Under the pieces are notes generated by a model, which saw only the letters and a program-made list of their open reading frames with translations, searched no databases and was not told where the DNA came from. Below are positions 23,803 to 50,244 of a DNA stretch of 64,000 bases, piece by piece. The first letter of the stretch is position 1. Each line of letters starts with the position of its first letter. The position numbers were made by a program, and so were the translations under genes. This DNA comes from Geothrix sp. (GTDB lineage: Bacteria; Acidobacteriota; Holophagae; Holophagales; Holophagaceae), in assembly GCF_020622065.1 (NCBI RefSeq), contig NZ_JAHRYQ010000002.1, forward strand, positions 298,232 through 362,231. Reading direction: 5' to 3'.

Positions 23803-26367
23803 TCAGTTGTTGAGCGCACCCGCGGTGATCCAGGCGGAAATGAGGGACTGATTGGCCGCAGATACATTCCGGTGGCCGCTCGCCAACTGGATGACCAGGG
23901 CGCTGGAGGCTGGGTCGCCCGGTACGACCCGGAGCCCCGGAAGTGTGGTGGCGGGCACATTCACCAGGTTGGCGTAGGCGCTTCCCGCGGTGAGGTTCAT
24001 GCCGGCCGCCCCTGCCGCGTCATGACAGCCCACGCAGAGGGGCGTGAAGATCTGGGTCTGGATCTGGGTGAGCGTGGGGGCGGCGACCGCCGAGACGGTG
24101 ATGGTGCGAACGGGTGGGTTCGGATCCACCAACCCGTGGGAATCCGTGGCCGTCAGGCGCACCGTGTAGGTCCCCGGGGCCGCAAAGGTGTGGGAACCCG
24201 GAGCCAGCAAGGTCGATGTCGTCCCATCCCCGAAAGTCCAGAGCACAGTGACCGCATCGCCATCCGGGTCGGAAGCCGTGCCCGTGAAGGTCACCGACTG
24301 GCCCGCGTTGATGGTGACATTGGTCGCAGGAGCGATGATCGTCGCGGTGGGCGGCTGATTCACCGGGGCGGCCGTGACGGTGATGGTGCGGGTCGGCGGG
24401 TTCGGGTCCGGCAATCCATGGGAATCCGTGGCCGTCAGGCGCGCCGTGTAGGTTCCGGCTGTGGCGTAGGCATGGGCGCCGGGAGCCAGCAAGGTGGAGG
24501 TCCCCCCGTCTCCGAATTCCCAGAGGACAGTGACCGGGTCTCCATTGGGATCCGAGGCGGTGCCTGCGAAGGTGACTGACTGCCCGGCGACGATGCTGAC
24601 GCTGCCGGAAGGCGAGGTGATCGTGGCGGAGGGCGGCAGGTTCACGGCAGCGGGCTGGACCGTGATGGTTCGGGTGGGCGGATTGGGATCCGCCAGCCCG
24701 TAGGCATCAGTGGCGGTCAGGCGGACCGTGTAGGTCCCGGCCATGGCATAGGTGTGGCTACCCGGCGAGAGGAGGGTAGAGCTGCTGCCATCGCCGAAGT
24801 CCCATAGGATCGAGACGGCATCGCCATCGGGATCCGTGGCCGTCCCCGCGAAGGTGACCGACTGACCGGCCTGGATGGTCGCATCCGCAGCTGGCGAAGT
24901 GATGACGGCCGTGGGTGGATGGTTCGCCGGGGGGGCGGCCGTGGGAAGGATCTGGCCCCGGATCTCGCCGGTGGGATACGAGCGGGTCGGAACAGTCAGG
25001 TAGAGGTTCCCGGCGGCGAGAGCGGCGCTGAATCCCGCCCAGTCGCCCGCATAGGGCCCCAGGAGGTTCTGGAGACGGATCCGACCCCCAAGGGCGAAGC
25101 CACCCATGCCCCCGCTTCCGCTCTCTCTCCCGCTCGTAAGCTCGTCCTCATCGTCATCAAAGTCGTCGCCGCGGGGGAGGATGGCCACCAGGGGCCCTGT
25201 GGTGCCCTTGGCGCCCTGATGGATCTCGATCCTGCGCACGCGGGCGATGCCCGTGATCGTCACCCGATAGCCGAGGGCCGGGCCAGTGGACACCTGGTCA
25301 TCGGAAAGGGTGGTTCCGCTCACGAAGCTGAAGGACGCCTTCCCGGAGGCCTGGGTCGTGACAGGGGGAACCTCTTCCGTCCCACTGAGCGTGGCCGTGA
25401 ACTGGGCCGGTGCAGCGGGGAGGATGGCGGGCCGCGCGACCAGGACGAGGCCCCGGCTGGTGCTGGTCCAGTACACGCTGCCGTTGGCGGCCACCGCGAC
25501 TCCCGTGGGCTCGGGATCACCCCTATGGATGACCGTCCTGGAAAGGGTCGCGAGGTCGAGGGCGCTCACGGTATTGGTGCCACCCGCGGCGGCGTCCTTG
25601 CCCGGCGTGGGCACCTCCGTGAAATACAGAACATCCTCGGCTGGACCGAGGGCAAGGCCTTGCGGCGACTTCAGCCCGGTGACGAGCACGCTGCCCTTGC
25701 CATCCGGGGACCGGTGATAGATGAGCCCTGCGGCGCGGCTGGTCCAGTAGAGATCCCCGGAAGACGCCGCGACCAGGACCGTCTTGTCCGGCCCCGAAGG
25801 ATCGGGGATGGCCGTGGGCGAGGCGCCCCGCACCAGCACGGCAGCCACGCCGTTTCCGCCCTGGGCGGCCGTTCCAGCGAGGTACACCCGGTTTGCGGCA
25901 TCCACGGCGATGGTCGTGGTCGGCAGCATGCCACCCGCATGGAGGACGGTCGGCGACCCCGCGGCCCTGCTCTGGGTCATGAGCGCACCCTTCTGCGCAT
26001 CCACCCAGTAGAGCCGCCCCGCCCGGTTCGCCGCGAATCCGGATTGAACGGCGGCCCCGCCGGCGATCAGGCCCACGCTTCCAGTGCCCAGGTCGATCCG
26101 GGCGAGCGAGGCATCCAGGGGGGCCGCGGGCTGCTGGGAGATCACCAGTGATCGGTTGTCCGCCAGGGCGATGCCCGTGGGCTTCGACAGGCCCGAAGCC
26201 ACCACGGAGAACGAGAATGGCGCAGCGCTTGCGCCCGGGGCCGGCTGGCTGGAGGAGGCTGTCTGCGCCTGGGAGGCGCTTTTCCCGCAGTGGAGGACGG
26301 GCAGCACCAGCGCCGCTCCCGCAAGGGTGGCGAGATTCATGGAGTGGCGGAGGAAGGAATGGGTCAT
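23803..26367 (-). CDS. Propeller/CHRD/triple-PKD lipoprotein with C-terminal c-type heme site
   Basis: An 854-residue exported protein. The N-terminus MTHSFLRHSMNLATLAGAAL ends in a lipobox-like LPVLHCGKS. Residues about 50-310 form propeller-like repeats (LYWVDAQKG, LYWTSRAAG, VYWTSTSRG). Residues 316-472 match a CHRD domain (FTATLSGTEEVPPV ... PTGEIRGQIL). Three PKD domains follow at about 489-760 (ILWDFGDG, VLWEFGDG, VLWTFGDG), 94 residues apart. Near residue 779 is CVGCH in a decaheme-like end domain, so one heme is likely. GGAG lies 6 bases before ATG 26367. The architecture suggests a surface redox or binding protein. Confidence 0.85.
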   Translation of the reverse strand: MTHSFLRHSMNLATLAGAALVLPVLHCGKSASQAQTASSSQPAPGASAAPFSFSVVASGLSKPTGIALADNRSLVISQQPAAPLDASLARIDLGTGSVGLIAGGAAVQSGFAANRAGRLYWVDAQKGALMTQSRAAGSPTVLHAGGMLPTTTIAVDAANRVYLAGTAAQGGNGVAAVLVRGASPTAIPDPSGPDKTVLVAASSGDLYWTSRAAGLIYHRSPDGKGSVLVTGLKSPQGLALGPAEDVLYFTEVPTPGKDAAAGGTNTVSALDLATLSRTVIHRGDPEPTGVAVAANGSVYWTSTSRGLVLVARPAILPAAPAQFTATLSGTEEVPPVTTQASGKASFSFVSGTTLSDDQVSTGPALGYRVTITGIARVRRIEIHQGAKGTTGPLVAILPRGDDFDDDEDELTSGRESGSGGMGGFALGGRIRLQNLLGPYAGDWAGFSAALAAGNLYLTVPTRSYPTGEIRGQILPTAAPPANHPPTAVITSPAADATIQAGQSVTFAGTATDPDGDAVSILWDFGDGSSSTLLSPGSHTYAMAGTYTVRLTATDAYGLADPNPPTRTITVQPAAVNLPPSATITSPSGSVSIVAGQSVTFAGTASDPNGDPVTVLWEFGDGGTSTLLAPGAHAYATAGTYTARLTATDSHGLPDPNPPTRTITVTAAPVNQPPTATIIAPATNVTINAGQSVTFTGTASDPDGDAVTVLWTFGDGTTSTLLAPGSHTFAAPGTYTVRLTATDSHGLVDPNPPVRTITVSAVAAPTLTQIQTQIFTPLCVGCHDAAGAAGMNLTAGSAYANLVNVPATTLPGLRVVPGDPASSALVIQLASGHRNVSAANQSLISAWITAGALNN
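24098..24943 (-). repeat. Three PKD-coding units, 282-bp period
   Basis: A matching GTGATGGTGCG-type block starts at 24098, 24380 and 24662, exactly 282 bases (94 codons) apart. Each unit encodes one PKD domain; the units have drifted but are clearly one duplicated module. Confidence 0.8.
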
Positions 26368-26864
26368 GGATCTCTCCTGTGAAGACGGGCCCTCCCCATC
26401 CGCCCCGTGCGGGGCGAGGGATCGGCAGAATGGAAAAGCGCGCGGGTCTTCACCACCCCTGCGGGGCCGCATGAGGCGCCAGCCACTCACCTGGATGGAA
26501 TGGCCCTCCTGGAACGGCCGGTGTCGATCACCGGATTGGACGCCAGAACGGGCTTCCGGGCATTCATTCCGGAAGTGAGTCGTAAACATGGAGCGCAGAC
26601 TTGCACCCGTCAAGACTCCCCACCACGAACTCCGGAGATGCTGCATTGGCGCCGGTTTAGAGGCTCTTAAGGTAGATTCGGAAAGGCCGCTTCCACCCAT
26701 CGGGCACCTCGATCTACACCTTCTGGATGACCTCGATCCTCCTCAAAGCCCATAGCGGCGGCCGCCCCGGCGATGCCGCCCTGCGCGGCGAGCAGAACAG
26801 ACCGCCTCGGATCGCGGCCCCGTAGATCGTACGAAGGATGGATCGTTCGCTTGGAATCCTTCAG
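26368..26864. other. 497-base gene-free stretch: structured leader and possible promoter
   Basis: The only gap above 300 bases. It lies between the mfd stop and the start of the PKD/heme lipoprotein gene, both on the minus strand. I see no convincing protein in it. It holds a candidate minus-strand promoter with TTGACG (26613-26608), a 17-base spacer and CATGTT, and then a leader of about 215 bases with strong inverted repeats (see 26379-26453). The part from 26660 to 26864 shows nothing I can name; no clear mfd terminator is visible. Confidence 0.5.
26379..26453 (-). ncRNA. Structured 5' leader of the PKD/heme lipoprotein gene
   Basis: Perfect 8-base arms GTGAAGAC (26379-26386) and GTCTTCAC (26446-26453) can close a 75-base structure. 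Inside is a perfect 6-bp hairpin CGCCCC-GTGC-GGGGCG (26401-26416). The outer stem ends 11 bases upstream of the ATG, next to the ribosome site. It does not match the c-di-GMP (GEMM), cobalamin or SAM consensus that I know. A regulatory RNA is a hypothesis. Confidence 0.35.
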
Positions 26865-42389: not shown

Positions 42390-42433
42390 AATCCGTCGAT
42401 CCACCGATTTCCCAACAATCTAGGTTCTACGGA

Positions 42434-42461
42434 AAAAGCGGCCCCGACTGGGGCCGCTTTT
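42434..42461. terminator. Strong bidirectional rho-independent terminator
   Basis: Perfect arms AAAAGCGGCCCC (42434-42445) and GGGGCCGCTTTT (42450-42461) with a GACT loop. A T run follows on the plus strand and the A run serves the minus strand. It lies between convergent genes ending at 42389 and 42487. Confidence 0.9.
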
Positions 42462-42486
42462 CTTAGGCTGACTTTCTAGGTGAACC

Positions 42487-43254
42487 TCAATCCACGCCAA
42501 AGTCGTACAGCTCCGAATCCCTGAACCAGATGCCGTACTCCCCAGGCTCCAGGTCCTTCTGGGGCGTAATCTGCCAGAACCCGTTGCCCTGCTCTTTGGC
42601 GGCGAAGAGCACCGTCCAGTCCTTGTCGGGGTTGGTGACGGATTTGTTGGTGAACATGCCCCGGCTCCCCAGTTTCACCGAGCGGGTCAGATCCTTCTTG
42701 TTCGACTCCGCCTTGACTAGGAAGTAGCGCCCCACGGGGCTCTGTTGCGACCGCACGAGGAACGCCGGCTTGTGGTCCTTGGTGCGGACCTCGGCCTTCA
42801 GCCCTGGGTAATCCATGAACATGAGCACCGTGACATAGGCCCAGGTCTGACTCGGGCTGCCTGCGATGGACCTGAGGTCGTACTCGCCATCCTTGGTCAT
42901 CAGCCGCGCCATGGGACCGCCCGAGGTGGTCACCACGGCTCCACCGTAAGGGCCCATCACGCTGGTGGTGTTCATCTCGCCTGCGGTGGCCGTCGCGCGC
43001 TTGAGCATGGCCGCCAGCACGGGCTTGCTCACGCCCTGCGACTTGAGCTTGGTGAGGTCATCGGTCTCCAGCTTGAAATCCACATACTTCGCCTGATTGA
43101 TCTTGGCGATGACCACATCGTCACCCAGATCGAGCTTGCAGAGCTTGATGACCTCCTGATTGGTGAGGGGGGCGTCCTTGGAGGGGGCCTGGGCCGAGGC
43201 TGGGCTGGCGGCGATAAGCAGGACTGGGGTCATCAAGCATGCCTGGAGATTCAT
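42487..43254 (-). CDS. Exported protein of unknown function
   Basis: A 255-residue protein with a signal peptide (MNLQACLMTPVLLIAASPASAQA). Residues about 28-90 contain LTNQEVIKLCKLDLGDDVVIAKI followed by LTKLKSQGVSKPVLAAML. This small helical module is one I have met in many acidobacterial exported proteins, without a known job. The rest looks like beta-rich sequence ending EPGEYGIWFRDSELYDFGVD. AAGGA lies 8 bases before the ATG. It is downstream of the big lipoprotein on the same strand, 79 bases apart. Confidence 0.78.
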   Translation of the reverse strand: MNLQACLMTPVLLIAASPASAQAPSKDAPLTNQEVIKLCKLDLGDDVVIAKINQAKYVDFKLETDDLTKLKSQGVSKPVLAAMLKRATATAGEMNTTSVMGPYGGAVVTTSGGPMARLMTKDGEYDLRSIAGSPSQTWAYVTVLMFMDYPGLKAEVRTKDHKPAFLVRSQQSPVGRYFLVKAESNKKDLTRSVKLGSRGMFTNKSVTNPDKDWTVLFAAKEQGNGFWQITPQKDLEPGEYGIWFRDSELYDFGVD

Positions 43255-43333
43255 GAGTAGGTTCCTTTAGAAGAGTCTTGGGTTCATGCCTTGTACAACG
43301 GCGCTTTATCTATTGATTTTTAATAAATCATCG

Positions 43334-46300
43334 TTAACGAATAGCATATGAAAGAAGACTAATATCAGTCTGACTTGATGGATCTGATGAAGATACTGTT
43401 CGACTCTTTACCCGGCCGACTCCGATTGCAAAATAATCAGTTATATACATCGTTAGCGTCGAAGCTCCAGTAACAGTTGTACGCACTGAATCAACTCGAA
43501 TGGTATCGAAGGTTCCAGCAGGTACTGTGACTGTTTCGGGACCAATTATTTTACAATCGATTGTTTCTGTTTGAGAAAAGGAACTTCCTTGGCCTGTGCT
43601 CGTGAACACCAAATGGGGACCAAAAGAAGAATCGGGCAAAAGAATGGGTTGAGGCGGAGTGTAAACATAAGACCCACCGCTTGAGTAGCTAAGGCTCATG
43701 GTGCTCATGTCCACACCACTGAGCTGAATATTAAAATTCGTATAGTTTCCAGTCATAAAGGATGAATTAATATATTTAATAGTCGCACTCTGACTCGATG
43801 CCGATAATACCGTGTAAGTATCCGTGTATCTGCTGCCTGAGATTGAAACCCCTTCATATTGCCAATAATTGCCTGAACTCATCGGATAGTAGCGACTCCC
43901 ATAGACTCCCGAAGACGGGGGAGCCGCCACGACCGTAAGTGTCGCCACATTGCTGATCGCAGTGCCTGCGCTGTTGGTGGCCTTGGCGCGGAACTTCGCC
44001 AAATGGTCGGAAGGCTGGGCTGAAAGGGAATAACTGGCCTGGGTGGCCCCCGGAATCGGTGCCCAGGTCAGGCCATCCGCGCTGCGCTCCCACAGGTAAC
44101 TGGGCGCGGGGGTCCCGCTGGCAGCCACCGTCAAGGTGGCGCTGGCTCCCACCGTCACGGTCTGGCTTTGGGGTTGAGCTGTGAAGATTGGGGCCGAACT
44201 GGCGTCCCCCGCGTTGTATAGGTCGGCGCGATCCGTAATGATTCCCCCCCCCGTCAGGCCTCCGGCCACAAGGACACTGCCATCGGCAAGAAGCGTAGTG
44301 GTATGGTAATAGCTCGATTTTGCCATGAAACCAGTCACAGAGAATAAACCTGTGGAGGGATCATAAAGTTCGGGAGGCCAGATGTGAAGATCGCCCGGGT
44401 CCAATCCTACAAGTAGCACTGAGCCTCTTTGAAGGCGCACAGCTGAATGCCCAATAGAGAGTGTTCCCATTACTCCAGTCGCAGTAAACCGACCCGTATT
44501 AGCGTCATATAGTTCAGCAGCACCAGAGGATGAGTTCCCCGTCAGCAACACCCTACCATCTGTTAAAAGAGTTGTTACATGATCGCTAGTCACAGCTGTG
44601 GGTGCACCAGTGGCAGTGAATACACCCGTTACCGGATTGTACAACTCGGCACTATTTGAGCCACCACCAACGACCATGACTTTACCATCGTTAAGTACCG
44701 CTACAGCCGGGCCCATGAATCTCGACACCACCATGGACCCTGTCGCTATGAATTTATTTAAGATTGGATCGTATATTTCAGCGGTTGACGAAGCTTCTCC
44801 TCCACCGATAAGCACCCGCCCATCTGCGAGGAGCACAGCAAAACAGCCCGACAAAGATCTGTCCTGAACCATGGGGCCAACAGTTGTGAACTTCTGGGTC
44901 GAAGGGTCATAGATTTCGGCCATTTTATACATGGAAAAAAGGTAATTCCCGCCGCCAACGACAAGTACCTTGCCATTACGCAGGAGCACAGCGGCATGTT
45001 GAGCCCTTTTGACGGCCATGGATCCGAGGGTGGCGGTAAAGGTTTTCGTCGAGGGGTTATAGATCTCCGCACTCCCGGTATCCCCCATTGGGGTTTGCCC
45101 ACCGGTGATCAGGACCGTGCCATCTCCAAGAGGCGTGGCCGTGTGATACATCCTTCCGATGGTCATAAAGCCCGTGGGTACGAAGGCTCCACCCCCAGAC
45201 GAAGGGCCACTTGATACCCCAGTGAAATTCTTCCCGGTGACATTGGCACCGCTCACCAGGACGGTCGTACTTGCGGGATTGAAGTTGTAGCCGGTCTTGG
45301 CAGGCGTCAGGACATAGCTTCCGTTGGCCAGACCCGAGATCGTGAAATTACCGCTGGCGTCAGTGCTGGCCGAGCTCGTACTGGTCCCAGTGCAAGTGAC
45401 CGTAACAGATGAAAGGGCGGCATTGGAGGCATCGGTCACCTTGCCCGAAATGGAATAACTGCTCGGAGCGGTTGCCGTCACGGTGAGCGTCACCACATTG
45501 CTCACCGCCGTTCCTGCGCTATTGCTCGCCTTGACCCTGAATTTCGCCAAGTGGTCCGTCGTCTGAGCCGTGAAGGTGTAGTTCGCCTGCGTGGCCCCAT
45601 TGATGGAGGTCCAGCTCAAGCCATCCGCGCTGCGCTCCCACTGGTAGGTCGGCGTGGGCGTTCCGGTAGCAGCTGCCGAGAACGCGGCCGCGCTTCCTGC
45701 CACCACCGATTGGCTGGCAGGCTGGGTGGTGAATGTCGGCGCTACGGGGTTGCCGCTGCCACCACTCACGGAGAGGGTGGCAGTCGTGCTCGTGGCCGTT
45801 CCTGCGCTGTTGCTCGCCTTGACCCTGAATTTCGCCAAGTGGTCCGTCGTCTGGGCCGTGAAGGTGTAGTTCGCCTGCGTGGCCCCATTGATGGAGGTCC
45901 AGCTCAGGCCATCCGCGCTGCGCTCCCACTGGTAGGTCGGCGTGGGCGTTCCGGTAGCAGCTGCCGAGAACGCGGCCGCGCTTCCTGCCACCACCGATTG
46001 GCTGGCAGGCTGGGTGGTGAATGTCGGCGCTACGGGGTTGCCGCTGCCACCACTCACGGAGAGGGTGGCAGTCGTGCTCGTGGCCGTTCCTGCGCTGTTG
46101 CTCGCCTTGACCCTGAATTTCGCCAAGTGGTCCGTCGTCTGGGCCGTGAAGGTGTAGTTCGCCTGCGTGGCCCCATTGATGGAGGTCCAGCTCAGGCCAT
46201 CCGCGCTGCGCTCCCACTGGTAGGTGGGCGAGGGTGACCCGGAGGCACTCGCATAGAAGGCCGCGTTGGCCCCCGACTGGACGGTGAGGTCAGCAGGCTG

Positions 46301-46459
46301 CCCCATGAACACGGGCGCGGTGACCGAGGGTGAAGAGGGCCCGGGATTGGCCGTTCCCCCCCCGCCGCCACCCCCACTGCATCCCAAACCAAGGGACAGT
46401 GCCATGGCGATACCCACAGATGCCAGGGGTTTCCAGAAGAATCGGCGGTGGTTGCCCAT
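43334..46459 (-). CDS. Large Ig-like/Kelch-repeat surface lipoprotein
   Basis: A 1041-residue exported lipoprotein. Start ATG 46459 has GAGG 5 bases before it. The lipobox LGLGCS is followed by seven glycines. Three Ig-like domains (TYQWERSADGLSW) come next, then a CarboxypepD-type regulatory domain (SSVTVTCTG...GNFTISGLANGSYVLTPAKTGYNF), then Kelch-like repeats (GTVLITGGQ, GKVLVVGGG, GRVLIGGG, GKVMVVGGG, GRVLLTGN), one more Ig-like domain, and an unassigned C-terminal domain of about 180 residues. Ig repeats 1-2 are nearly identical at the DNA level. The C-terminal and Kelch parts are clearly more AT-rich than the rest. Probable adhesin or binding protein. Confidence 0.88.
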   Translation of the reverse strand: MGNHRRFFWKPLASVGIAMALSLGLGCSGGGGGGGTANPGPSSPSVTAPVFMGQPADLTVQSGANAAFYASASGSPSPTYQWERSADGLSWTSINGATQANYTFTAQTTDHLAKFRVKASNSAGTATSTTATLSVSGGSGNPVAPTFTTQPASQSVVAGSAAAFSAAATGTPTPTYQWERSADGLSWTSINGATQANYTFTAQTTDHLAKFRVKASNSAGTATSTTATLSVSGGSGNPVAPTFTTQPASQSVVAGSAAAFSAAATGTPTPTYQWERSADGLSWTSINGATQANYTFTAQTTDHLAKFRVKASNSAGTAVSNVVTLTVTATAPSSYSISGKVTDASNAALSSVTVTCTGTSTSSASTDASGNFTISGLANGSYVLTPAKTGYNFNPASTTVLVSGANVTGKNFTGVSSGPSSGGGAFVPTGFMTIGRMYHTATPLGDGTVLITGGQTPMGDTGSAEIYNPSTKTFTATLGSMAVKRAQHAAVLLRNGKVLVVGGGNYLFSMYKMAEIYDPSTQKFTTVGPMVQDRSLSGCFAVLLADGRVLIGGGEASSTAEIYDPILNKFIATGSMVVSRFMGPAVAVLNDGKVMVVGGGSNSAELYNPVTGVFTATGAPTAVTSDHVTTLLTDGRVLLTGNSSSGAAELYDANTGRFTATGVMGTLSIGHSAVRLQRGSVLLVGLDPGDLHIWPPELYDPSTGLFSVTGFMAKSSYYHTTTLLADGSVLVAGGLTGGGIITDRADLYNAGDASSAPIFTAQPQSQTVTVGASATLTVAASGTPAPSYLWERSADGLTWAPIPGATQASYSLSAQPSDHLAKFRAKATNSAGTAISNVATLTVVAAPPSSGVYGSRYYPMSSGNYWQYEGVSISGSRYTDTYTVLSASSQSATIKYINSSFMTGNYTNFNIQLSGVDMSTMSLSYSSGGSYVYTPPQPILLPDSSFGPHLVFTSTGQGSSFSQTETIDCKIIGPETVTVPAGTFDTIRVDSVRTTVTGASTLTMYITDYFAIGVGRVKSRTVSSSDPSSQTDISLLSYAIR
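45541..46116 (-). repeat. Two almost identical 288-bp tandem units (Ig-domain repeats)
   Basis: Units 45541-45828 and 45829-46116 match over 288 bases (96 codons), with only two differences seen (an A/G at about 45566/45854 and one near 45618/45906). A third copy starts at 46117 but diverges at about 46225. Preserved codon phase means copy number can change without a frameshift. Confidence 0.9.
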
Positions 46460-46579
46460 CGGAACCTCGAGAAGGATTCTGCGAGGCACAATAGCATTTT
46501 TTTAATATTTCAACTACGAAATATAAATTCAATCCCAAGCCCTCATCCGGGCTGATGTCCCACGAGTTCGAATCGCCGT

Positions 46580-47053
46580 TCAGTCGGCCACTATCCAGAC
46601 GGAGCGTCCTTCCTTGAGGGCTTTCATCAGGAAGCCCATGGCTTCCATGGGTTCCAACCGCTGCTCGGACTGGGTCCGGACATCAATGGCCAGGGCGGCG
46701 CCGGGGCCGGGATCTGAGAGGCCCATGGGACCCTGTTTTGGAATGTGTCGTTGAGATGTGGCTTCCCGGTCCAGGGCGCTGTGGGCCTCCAGCCCCTCTC
46801 CTGTTTCCAGGGCCTGGACCGTGACGCTGAAATAGGAGGCCACGCCCGCCAGGGCCGGGCCCGAGGGCTTGGCCCGGTCTCTTTCCCACAGGGAGACCGT
46901 GGCCTGGTCGCTGTTCAAGGCTTCGCCCAGTTCCACCTGCGTCAGCCCCCGCTGGACGCGCAGCATCTTGATCCGCTCGCCCAGTGAGCGCGGCGTCCCG
47001 GATGCGCTCTGGGAATCGTAGGGTCCACGAACGGCCATGACCCATGGTTGCAT
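46580..47053 (-). CDS. XRE-family helix-turn-helix transcriptional regulator
   Basis: About 157 residues. The HTH domain (about 27-80) reads LGERIKMLRVQRGLTQVELGEALNSDQATVSLWERDRAKPSGPALAGVA. The C-terminal part (about 90-157) is unassigned and carries LEPMEAMGFLMKALKEGRSVWIVAD. Starts at 47053 or 47038 are both possible; neither has a clear ribosome site. It is divergent from the Ser/Thr kinase gene, about 80 bases between starts, which suggests local regulation. It is also upstream of the big lipoprotein gene on the same strand. Confidence 0.78.
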   Translation of the reverse strand: MQPWVMAVRGPYDSQSASGTPRSLGERIKMLRVQRGLTQVELGEALNSDQATVSLWERDRAKPSGPALAGVASYFSVTVQALETGEGLEAHSALDREATSQRHIPKQGPMGLSDPGPGAALAIDVRTQSEQRLEPMEAMGFLMKALKEGRSVWIVAD

Positions 47054-47141
47054 CAGCCGACGGAGGATCGGAACCACGAAAAAGGTGATGCCACATTTTT
47101 CATAGGTGTGGATTAAAGCGTTCCAGGTAGATTGATTGAAA

Positions 47142-50100
47142 ATGATCTCATCATCTTCTACGCAGTCCCCCCTGGCGAGCCCCGCCGAACCTCCAGAGTG
47201 GGCCTCCAGCCATGAGAGCCCCCGACTGGGGCGTTTCGTTATGGGCCCTGAATTGGGTCGAGGTGGCATGGGGGTGGTGCATCTCGCCTGGGACCCCCTG
47301 CTCCGCCGCCAAGTCGCCCTCAAGCGCCTGCTGAATGCGGATCCGGTGATGGCGCTACGCTTCATGCGTGAGGCCCAGATCCAGGCACGGGTGGAACATC
47401 CCCGCATCTGCAAAGTCTTTGAAGTGGGCTCCGAAGGGGAGCATCCCTTCATCGCCATGCAGTACATCCAGGGCCAAACTCTGGGTGAGGCGAAGGATGA
47501 CCTGGGCATCAATGAGAAGGCCTGCATCATGGCCAATGTGGCCGGCGCCCTTCATGCGGCCCACCAGATGGGTCTGATCCACCGGGACATCAAGCCCTCC
47601 AACATCCTGCTGGAGTTCTGTGAGGACGGCACCTGTGTTCCCTACATCCTGGATTTCGGTTTGGCGAGGGACCAGTCCGTGGCGGATCTCACCCTCTCCT
47701 GGGGACTGGTGGGTACCCCAGCCTTCATGAGCCCGGAACAAGCCGAAGGCTGTGAGGCCACGCAATCATCGGACATCTACAGCCTGGGGGCCACCTTCTA
47801 TGCCTTGTTCGGCGGGCACCCTCCCTTTGAGGCCACCACGCTGGCTGGCCTCATCCATCAGCAGGACACCCAGATCATCCGCTGCCTCCGGCGGACGATT
47901 CCGGGTTTCCCCCAGGATCTCGACACCATCCTTCTGAAGTGCATGGAGGCCGACCCGGCCAGGCGCTACGACTCGGCGTTCGACCTGGAGGAGGACCTCC
48001 GGCGCTGGCTGGCAGGCGAACCGATCCGCGCGCGGGCCATCGGCCCACTGGGCCGGGCTTGGCGCAGGATCAAGCGGCATCGGACCCTCAGCCTTGCCAT
48101 CACGGCCGGCGCCCTCGTGGCCCTGTCGCTTGCGGGGTGGAATGTTCACGCGGCGCGGCGGGCAAGGGCGCAGGTGGAGTTGGCCCAGACCTTCGGCCTC
48201 CAGGTACGGGAGGTGGAGCAGTTGCTCCGCATCGAGCGCATGCTGCCGGCCCATGACATCCGGCCTGCTGAAGTCCAGGTGAAGCGGCGGATGTCTGACA
48301 TCCGCACCACCATGGCGAAACTCGGCCTTGTGGCAGAGGGGCCTGGACATTACGCCCTGGGAAGAGGACATCTGGCGCTCCGGGAATTCTCCCTGGCACT
48401 GGACGAACTGGCCAAAGCGCGCCGTGCGGGGTTCGATTCGCCTGATGTGGCCTATGCCACCGGATCCGCCCTCATGGAGGGTTATTTCGACGAACTTCTG
48501 CACCGGAATCCTCAGCCCTCTGAGCACGAAGCCATCCGCCAGCGCTTTGCGGTCCCGGCCCACGCCGAATTCATCCGGGCCATGGGTCGGAGCCAGGAGG
48601 ATCCAGCGTTCGGCGAGGCCCAGGTCGCCATGTTGGAACTGGACTACCCCCTCTGCATCCGGAAATGCAAGGATGCCTTCAAGGCCCGCCCCTGGATGTA
48701 CGAGGCCAAGGTGCTGGAGGCCCAGGCCTGGGGCCTGCTCGCGAATCAGTCGCTCGGTCTCGGAGCTGAAACGATCCGAAGCGTCGGCGAAGGGCGGGCC
48801 GCGCTCAAAAATGGCGAATCGGCCCTGGAGGACGCCCTCCGCCTCGCGCCCAGCGACGAACGGATTTGTGGGGTGATGCTTGCTCAGATCGTCCGGGAAT
48901 CCACCTTCGATGCCGATGGTGGTGAGCCCTCGGAAGCGATCTTCAAACGGGGAGACGCTCTATGCGCCAGGGCCATGCTCATCCGACCGGACGACCTCCG
49001 GGTGCGGCAAGATTGGGCCTATGGGCGGGTGAGGCAGGGCTTCGTCCAGCTCCGGACGGGCGTGGATGTCAGGCCCCTCATGCGTGAAACCCTCAAGGCA
49101 CTCCAGGCCGACGAGCGGAAGATCAAGGACGAAGGGCTCGCTGATGTCATAGCCTATCTACATTGGATTCTTGCAGATGGGCAGTTTCGAAGGGGGGAGG
49201 ACCCCTTGCACGAACTGGAGCTCATGGCCTTCTTCCTCAAGCCCGGTACTTTCGATCATGTGCAGCCGGCTTGCCTACTGGCGGAGTTCCTGGCTAGCCG
49301 AGGCCGGTCACCTCTTCCAGTGCTGGAGGACGCAGAACGCATTCTCGAGACCGGGCCACAGGCCAAGTCCAACAATTATTACCCTCTCACGGTGTGGGGG
49401 AATCTCCTGCTCGTCCGCGCGGAATGGGAGATGGATGAGGGCCGTGACCCCCGCGCCACCCTAGACCGGGCGGTCCTGCACCTGGAGCAGAGTCAGCGCC
49501 TCAGTCCGAACAGCGTGTTTCCGCCCATGCACTTGGTGCTGGCGCATGCCTGGAAGGCCCGACGGGCCTTGGCCCTAGGTCAGGATCCCGCGCCCCATCT
49601 GGAAGCTGCGCTCACCTCGGGCCGGCGAGGCCTCGCCATCACGAGGAGCCATTATCGGCTGCACCTCGGCTTGGCCGAAGCACACCGAATCCGAGCCCTC
49701 GCGGCCTTTGCAAAGAGAAGGGATCCCTCTCCCTTCCTGCAGGAGGCCCGCGCCGCCCTGCGAGAAGGTTCCCAGTTGAACGCTACCGATTTCCGGCTTT
49801 TCCGGGAGGCGGTGGCCATCGAGGTGCTGGCCGCTGATTACGCCCTTCGGCTGAACCGATCCCCCCTGGAGGATCTCACGCAGGCCGAGCGGATGGCCCG
49901 ACGCGGCCTAGCCATCAAAGGCGATGATCCGAAACTCCGGTTGGCCCTCGCCAGGATCGACCGCATGCGCGCCGCATGGGCCAACTCGCAGGGCTTGTCT
50001 CCAGATGGGGCGATCCAGGAGGCCAGGTTGCATCTCGCCCAATCCATCGGGATCCATCCTTCCCCATTCACTGAAGCAGAGCGGATCCTGATCGAAGGTC

Positions 50101-50192
50101 TGGCTTCAGAGGCTCCGGTGAAGGCCCTCGAGATCTTCCGGGTTTACACCCGGAACCATCCCTATCTGGCTCTCGACTACCCGATCCCGTGA
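47142..50192 (+). CDS. Membrane Ser/Thr protein kinase with long C-terminal helical repeat region
   Basis: About 1016 residues. The N-terminal Hanks-type kinase is complete: Gly loop LGRGGMGVVHLAW, Lys61 (VALKRLL), catalytic Asp149 in HRDIKPSN, Asp171 in DFGLA and GTPAFMSPEQAEG. One membrane segment lies near 316-334. The C-terminal 680 residues are helical, with TPR-like stretches (YALGRGHLALREFSLALDELAKARRAG), and would lie in the periplasm. The start ATG 47142 or TTG 47136 is undecided. It is divergent from an XRE gene and ends at a strong terminator. The kinase target is unknown. Confidence 0.9.
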   Translation: MISSSSTQSPLASPAEPPEWASSHESPRLGRFVMGPELGRGGMGVVHLAWDPLLRRQVALKRLLNADPVMALRFMREAQIQARVEHPRICKVFEVGSEGEHPFIAMQYIQGQTLGEAKDDLGINEKACIMANVAGALHAAHQMGLIHRDIKPSNILLEFCEDGTCVPYILDFGLARDQSVADLTLSWGLVGTPAFMSPEQAEGCEATQSSDIYSLGATFYALFGGHPPFEATTLAGLIHQQDTQIIRCLRRTIPGFPQDLDTILLKCMEADPARRYDSAFDLEEDLRRWLAGEPIRARAIGPLGRAWRRIKRHRTLSLAITAGALVALSLAGWNVHAARRARAQVELAQTFGLQVREVEQLLRIERMLPAHDIRPAEVQVKRRMSDIRTTMAKLGLVAEGPGHYALGRGHLALREFSLALDELAKARRAGFDSPDVAYATGSALMEGYFDELLHRNPQPSEHEAIRQRFAVPAHAEFIRAMGRSQEDPAFGEAQVAMLELDYPLCIRKCKDAFKARPWMYEAKVLEAQAWGLLANQSLGLGAETIRSVGEGRAALKNGESALEDALRLAPSDERICGVMLAQIVRESTFDADGGEPSEAIFKRGDALCARAMLIRPDDLRVRQDWAYGRVRQGFVQLRTGVDVRPLMRETLKALQADERKIKDEGLADVIAYLHWILADGQFRRGEDPLHELELMAFFLKPGTFDHVQPACLLAEFLASRGRSPLPVLEDAERILETGPQAKSNNYYPLTVWGNLLLVRAEWEMDEGRDPRATLDRAVLHLEQSQRLSPNSVFPPMHLVLAHAWKARRALALGQDPAPHLEAALTSGRRGLAITRSHYRLHLGLAEAHRIRALAAFAKRRDPSPFLQEARAALREGSQLNATDFRLFREAVAIEVLAADYALRLNRSPLEDLTQAERMARRGLAIKGDDPKLRLALARIDRMRAAWANSQGLSPDGAIQEARLHLAQSIGIHPSPFTEAERILIEGLASEAPVKALEIFRVYTRNHPYLALDYPIP

Positions 50193-50195
50193 CGC

Positions 50196-50222
50196 AAAAG
50201 GCGGCCCGGTGGGCCGCCTTTT
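50196..50222. terminator. Strong bidirectional rho-independent terminator
   Basis: Arms AAAAGGCGGCCC (50196-50207) and GGGCCGCCTTTT (50211-50222) with a GGT loop lie between the convergent kinase and cold-shock genes. T runs occur on both strands. Confidence 0.9.
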
Positions 50223-50244
50223 CTTTGGAACGGTAAGAGAAGAG

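Follow-up and report, generated by a model that had tools for sequence, protein, structure and literature searches.

How a single surface lipoprotein gene of a Geothrix genome (G000) came to consist of parts so unlike in base composition is the question raised by this locus, which lies in a window of 64,000 nucleotides (the whole stretch of DNA that was analysed). The gene is contained in a single minus-strand open reading frame, 43334..46489, with GTG as first codon; the in-frame ATG at 46459 is the likely true start, and is preferred because the orthologue in the related genome G010 opens with an identical MGNH. The encoded domains follow the order signal peptide with lipobox (read by eye as LGLGC here and LTMAC in G010), Ig1–3, CarboxypepD_reg, Kelch repeats, Ig4 and a DUF3108-like C-terminal domain, and the lipoprotein would be located at the outer surface. 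Ig1–3 contains a tandem repeat with a 288 bp unit (45507–46234; 2.5 copies, 98% matches), and an exact stretch of 26 nt is common to Ig4 (44068–44093) and Ig1–3, an identity reached by 2 of 500 synonymous redraws and a candidate handle for recombination. Like proteins of the DUF3108-like type (PF21347; PDB 4fvs, 3fzx), the C-terminal part matches PF21347 (43.9 bits against a cut-off of 27, covering profile positions 118–185 of 199); unlike them, it forms the tip of an Ig-Kelch protein, with PDB matches only at E 0.04–0.07. Single-sequence AlphaFold models had a mean pLDDT of 31.6 and 42.6. G8 and G9 tracts are also present within the gene (46356–46363 and 44244–44252).

Table 1. Coordinates of the lipoprotein gene, its parts and the surrounding accessory block within the window
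Feature	Position	Strand	Remarks
Accessory block, 7,801 bp	42395..50195		G032 has 15 bp instead
255-aa exported-looking protein, family not recognised	42487..43254	minus	ORF and family searches
Surface lipoprotein gene	43334..46459	minus	ATG start (likely)
C-terminal DUF3108-like domain	43337..43909	minus	GC3 0.35; identity to G010 counterpart 26%
Ig4	43910..44200	minus	GC3 0.74
Kelch repeats	44201..45196	minus	GC3 0.52; none in G010 orthologue
CarboxypepD_reg domain	45197..45460	minus	GC3 0.65; identity to G010 59%
Signal peptide, lipobox (by eye), Ig1–3	45463..46459	minus	GC3 0.80–0.82
Conserved promoter block	46487..46524	minus	common to G000, G010 and C307
XRE-type regulator, 152 aa	46583..47038	minus	profile match
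Ser/Thr kinase with long C-terminal part	47136..50192	plus	profile match
Hairpin behind cold-shock-like gene, right block edge	50196..50223		G032 comparison

Consistent with the original prediction, GC windows and per-domain GC3 confirm a mosaic of AT-rich and GC-rich parts inside this one gene, and uniform composition is contradicted by the sliding GC and codon-usage calculation. GC in 300-nt windows was 0.65–0.68 at 45500–46500, 0.49–0.52 at 44300–45000, 0.66 at 43900–44300 and 0.40–0.45 at 43300–43900, with adjoining windows outside the gene at 0.54–0.72. GC3, a measure largely independent of amino acid content, was 0.80 for the signal peptide with Ig1, 0.82 for Ig2 and 0.80 for Ig3, intermediate between Ig1–3 and Kelch for CarboxypepD_reg, and lower in the Kelch and C-terminal parts (Table 1), compared with an own-genome mean of 0.87 (20 stretches, 290 genes). 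Neighbouring domains differed in GC3 by Fisher test (Ig1–3 vs CarboxypepD_reg 1e-3; CarboxypepD_reg vs Kelch 0.04; Kelch vs Ig4 1e-4; Ig4 vs C-terminal domain 3e-10), the change from Ig4 to the C-terminal domain being the steepest. The bounds first given for the Kelch part (44280–45010) had to be corrected to about those of Table 1, and while its AT-richness stood, a drop in one step did not: GC3 was 0.63 over the first 99 codons and 0.48 over the remainder, and in 50-codon windows slid from 0.64 to 0.38 before reaching 0.58 ahead of Ig4. Automatic segmentation failed to set Ig4 apart; its breaks fell at codons 483 and 956. AT-rich DNA continues past the end of the gene into the short intergenic stretch 43255–43333.

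Such GC3 values are rare in the genome itself. With genes called by a program that uses codon usage and is biased against odd genes, none of 148 own-genome stretches equal in length to the Kelch part, and none of 361 equal in length to the C-terminal part, had so low a GC3. A caller based on length alone, which lets false ORFs through, yielded 5 of 201 and 0 of 465, and with the same caller the unlike codon choice was borne out by codon scores as low in 0 of 201 and 0 of 465 sampled stretches, respectively. The GC3 range inside the gene exceeds that of every one of 47 long sampled own-genome genes, although one of 47 background ORFs had a higher single-split score. Composition thus differs between parts of the gene beyond chance, as expected of a chimeric gene. 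If parts were indeed exchanged here, a within-gene GC shift can mark such exchange even in a gene that is wholly accessory.

This gene is indeed wholly accessory. It lies in a block of four genes encoding the 255-aa protein, the lipoprotein, the XRE regulator and the Ser/Thr kinase, lying between two convergent core genes. The flanks include a gene for a 710-aa protein that we take, by reading, to be a dehydrogenase E1 and, on the right, what is presumably a cold-shock protein gene (csp). In G032, the nearest genome, identity is 98% for this 710-aa protein and 95% and 97% for the flank DNA, and the site is empty. The flank gene was located in 26 genomes, and in all 13 of those inspected for the block (G032, G024, G014, G063, G012, G019, G028, G066, G060, G008, G067, G006 and G018) the flanks were intact and the block was absent, as judged by the lack of any tblastn match to a block protein at 1e-10 in the flanking stretch. 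The idea that the GC-rich N-terminal part is simply host core therefore fails, since the whole gene sits inside the 7.8-kb block that these relatives do not have. Some block-less relatives (G012, G063 and G019) have an XRE-kinase pair elsewhere in the genome, and the 255-aa protein was found at 80–85% only in G010 among 41 genomes (G018: 40%). A tRNA search of the window returned none, none of the four block genes had a Pfam match to a mobility family, and inspection by eye showed no integrase or transposase among them.

The site has other occupants. G010 has a block at the same site, with a small gene pair separating XRE and kinase and additional genes past the 255-aa gene, and its lipoprotein orthologue has the architecture SP-Ig-Ig-CarboxypepD_reg-tail with neither Kelch nor Ig4. 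A contig binned with another family, G164:C307, probably belongs to this genus, given how similar its flanks are to those of the window (94% over the last 68 aa of E1, 68% for the 279-aa gene and 96% for csp); it keeps the kinase (58%) and XRE (86%), and its cargo behind XRE is a 1220-aa BNR/Sortilin-Ig-dockerin protein. G002 carries its XRE and kinase at a different location, along with a protein of 1950 aa or more that has Ig and Big_2 domains. In G007, which also has both genes, XRE is followed by two small ORFs that look exported and have 29–33% GC. The kinase adjoins XRE in 9 of 25 XRE loci examined (partly judged from the ORF listing), and strongly AT-rich DNA (minimum <0.40) lies behind XRE in only four of these nine pairs: over the 3.3 kb that follow XRE, the minimum GC of a 300-nt window was 0.39 in G000, 0.35 in G010, 0.35 in G002 and 0.26 in G007, 0.53 in C307, and 0.58–0.67 in G019, G012, G063 and G036. 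Dips of this sort are not unusual in the own genome, where 5 of 116 control stretches of 3.3 kb reach 0.43 GC or below.

One promoter stands before these different cargos at the shared site, where three occupied versions are fully seen, one of them on the mis-binned contig (the G010 contig C42 ends short of the promoter). The promoter block comprises a palindrome, ATATTTC-N6-GAAATAT (46505–46524), common to G000 and G010 and degenerate in C307, and a second element, AAATATTAAAAAAATGCTAwTGTG (46487–46510), which together with an ATGGGC start is common to all three. Each element occurs once in the window with 2 and 3 mismatches allowed, respectively (shuffle expectation 0.00), and among 180 loci the exact palindrome is confined to those of G000 and G010 and the exact second element to those of G000, G010 and G164; a looser form of the palindrome had 2 matches, both strands counted, in a 390-kb sample. 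The palindrome is a candidate XRE operator. Promoter prediction gave no sigma-70-like call in the vicinity of the block.

A single conserved full-length orthologue matching all parts would have spoken against a chimera, and none was found among 60 relatives and 396 phylum genomes. A search of the own genome for a second DNA copy, with 40 of 45 candidates scored, returned at E 0.001 only the gene itself, which makes recent conversion of the Ig units from elsewhere in the genome unlikely. No donor for the Kelch part or the tail at more than 50% identity was found in relatives, phylum genomes, genome contigs, plasmids or phages. Kelch matches at E 1e-55 or better occurred in five of the 396 phylum genomes, the best outside the genus at 49%, and the C-terminal part had a single match beyond itself (35% over 74 aa). 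Pattern search of genome contigs gave one relative among 23 matches, a Bacteroidales MAG at 34%, plasmids gave no donor match, and phages gave 12 records; among those listed, Myxococcus phage Mx1 gives the best match with its Kelch (32%), nine more match Ig4 alone, and two of the 12 fall outside the list. PF21347 matched in 4 of 47 genus genomes, 3 of them above the cut-off and G010 not included. The searches identified neither a donor nor a junction, and transfer of the AT-rich parts is something that we infer instead of trace, because they yielded no donor. Literature searches, judged from record listings, brought up nothing about this locus.

The tail is disproportionately diverged. Between the two G010 loci (C85 and C42) its dN is 0.079, compared with 0.044 for the 255-aa gene, and this rate ratio of 1.8 leads to an expected tail dN of about 0.2 between G000 and G010. 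Observed dN between the latter (NG86; dS saturated) is 0.10–0.12 for the 255-aa gene, 0.136 for XRE, 0.137 for the kinase domain, 0.30 for the TetR-like flank gene, 0.34 for the stalk and 0.49 for the kinase C-terminal part, and at least 1.06 for the C-terminal domain. On these sequence comparisons, replacement of the tail is favoured over steady descent, though a burst of change may also account for it; by dN, the changed tail could be that of either G000 or G010. The G010 tail, itself AT-rich (GC3 0.34), occupies the same position and is likewise DUF3108-like, albeit under the Pfam cut-off, and the AT-rich tail may thus be old or selected instead of freshly imported. Island genes are not recently transferred between G000 and G010, because their dS (0.66–1.10) stands against 0.45–0.68 for flanking genes. 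In a Kelch tree of 22 rows, which left out hits shorter than 250 aa or more than 95% identical, the window Kelch has no supported sister, and its branch is long (1.2).

That AT-richness is an ordinary trait of Kelch or surface proteins in the genus is disfavoured as very improbable. Three AT-rich Kelch ORFs in the fetched loci fit it (GC3 0.56 in L012, 0.55 in L038 and 0.57 in own-genome L133), but the other 19 of 22 lie at 0.72–0.95, and the Kelch vs Ig gap is at most 0.07 in the 11 Kelch ORFs with both measured. In a set of 33 ORFs from the fetched loci, each with an Ig or Kelch match and no shorter than 400 codons (nested ORFs merged prior to counting, some clipped at locus ends), the three largest GC3 ranges belong to the XRE-kinase-linked proteins of G000 (0.58), G002 (0.55) and G010 (0.48), the other 30 reaching at most 0.37. 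A GC-rich head with an AT-rich tail is accordingly not peculiar to this gene, being seen in three large surface proteins beside a regulator-kinase pair. A more serious contender, though still unlikely, is vertical descent of one ancestral, fast-evolving tail, its AT-richness maintained by selection or by weak codon selection, while ordinary duplication and deletion would account for the gain or loss of Kelch-Ig4. The shared type, place and AT-richness of the G000 and G010 tails speak for it, as does the fast change of the stalk and the kinase C-terminal part, whereas a tail dN several-fold beyond that predicted from the G010 pair and the isolated Kelch branch speak against it.

It is also conceivable, but improbable, that a donor outside the sample already had the mosaic and passed it on whole, XRE and kinase included, with no local recombination. 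This would fit a block that is entirely accessory, has clean edges and exceeds its flanks in dS; however, it shifts the chimera to another cell and leaves it unexplained, and the G010 block at this very site has a matching stalk and promoter. We lean, with modest confidence, towards the lipoprotein gene as one occupant of a surface-protein exchange site, made by tail exchange. Taken singly, the gene is best read as a chimera, as originally proposed; this view is partly supported and belongs within a wider variable surface-protein slot. The lack of a full-length orthologue, the G010 protein without Kelch and Ig4 and the over-diverged tail stand in its favour, and the empty donor search does not. 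Also against the exchange site stand the gradual change of composition along Kelch, the AT-richness of the G010 tail, the fast change of the stalk, the kinase C-terminal part and the TetR-like flank gene, the low number of occupied versions, the AT-rich DNA behind XRE in only four of nine pairs and the AT-rich dips elsewhere in the genome.

With the exchange site as the preferred reading, a conserved head consisting of a divergent Ser/Thr kinase, XRE and the AT-rich promoter with its palindrome lies inside the accessory block, and differing exported proteins, all with Ig domains, occupy the place behind the one promoter. Signal peptide, Ig stalk and CarboxypepD_reg are kept in common with G010, while recombination probably brought in Kelch, Ig4 and the DUF3108-like tip from a source outside the sample that is richer in AT, and the repeated Ig units may supply the homology for it; we infer both recombination as the cause and the direction of exchange. 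Anchored in the outer membrane, the lipoprotein would use its Ig stalk to present the Kelch propeller and tip at a distance from the cell, where they would bind a ligand or a surface. Its expression would be controlled by XRE at the palindrome, perhaps together with the membrane Ser/Thr kinase. Swapping the part behind the stalk would alter what the cell binds. A bolder and rather doubtful version is a dedicated expression site, in which a fixed kinase-XRE-operator head is served by recombination that swaps whole propeller/Ig proteins or tails, and in which the G8 and G9 tracts might switch expression on and off; if true, this would provide a strain-specific exposed binding tip.

Arrangements of this kind, mosaic surface genes and variable islands, are already known; the parts are new. 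Polymorphic surface proteins combine a conserved N-terminal part with exchanged C-terminal modules, and this locus resembles them in its common export and stalk region, varied downstream modules at one locus and recombination-capable repeats. It differs in that no known toxin, immunity or antigen family was matched and in that the modules are Kelch/BNR propellers, Ig and DUF3108-like domains, the variation seen here being between genomes. Genomic islands occur at intergenic hot spots, with which the block shares clean presence or absence between core genes and variable content; unlike these, it showed no tRNA, integrase or transposase (see above) and ends at the right in a hairpin. The kinase matches PASTA/Stk1-type kinases (NF033483) strongly in its kinase domain, yet reaches 240.5 bits against a cut-off of 450, its match stops at residue 302 and Pfam reports no PASTA. 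An anti-phage defence system was considered and rejected, a PADLOC search having returned no system-specific protein, only kinase-domain and HTH matches, with none for the lipoprotein or 255-aa gene.

If the exchange-site reading is right, environmental bacteria vary the proteins they expose by exchanging them behind a single fixed promoter, and this locus would offer a clean test case, with one site and head, varied cargos and many empty sites.

The two G tracts of the lipoprotein gene may serve as phase-variation tracts. In a 390-kb sample of stretches from the same Geothrix sp. genome, runs of at least eight numbered 20, only one of which reached nine, and the lipoprotein gene of the compared genome G010 is without any run of this type. 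Elsewhere in the Geothrix sp. genome, one match at the locus of a further AT-rich Kelch ORF (L133) runs across two TGA stops.

Coordinates of tracts, repeats and small genes
Feature	Location	Details
G8 tract	46356-46363	G on coding strand; directly past lipobox of lipoprotein gene
G9 tract	44244-44252	G on coding strand; close to end of Kelch part of lipoprotein gene
Tandem array	24089-24864	282 bp x 2.8, 74% matches; within ORF 23803-26700 of the window
AT-rich Kelch ORF	L133, G000:C2 (own genome), about 635.5-637.0 kb	third-codon-position GC 0.57
Small gene pair	L081:9033-9721 (G010)	between XRE regulator and kinase genes
Two small exported-looking ORFs	L102:6576-7741 (G007:C12)	behind XRE-kinase pair

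The draft genome G010 holds the same site in two versions (L081 on contig C85, L082 on contig C42), perhaps representing two strains. The C42 contig breaks off within the lipoprotein gene, with in-frame stops close to its end. The small gene pair of the C85 version looks by eye like a putative PIN toxin with its antitoxin. In genome G007, the two small ORFs have a GC content of 29-33% in an otherwise GC-rich genome, and a Pfam search with them returned nothing at 0.01. A contig binned with another family (G164:C307, locus L171) carries flanks, the end of a putative dehydrogenase E1 gene and a putative cold-shock protein gene, that are 94-96% identical to this genus, and is probably mis-binned.

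The Ser/Thr kinase gene (47136-50192) is 79% identical to its G010 counterpart in the catalytic part versus 48% in the C-terminal part, so the sensor-like part of the kinase is diverging together with the lipoprotein.
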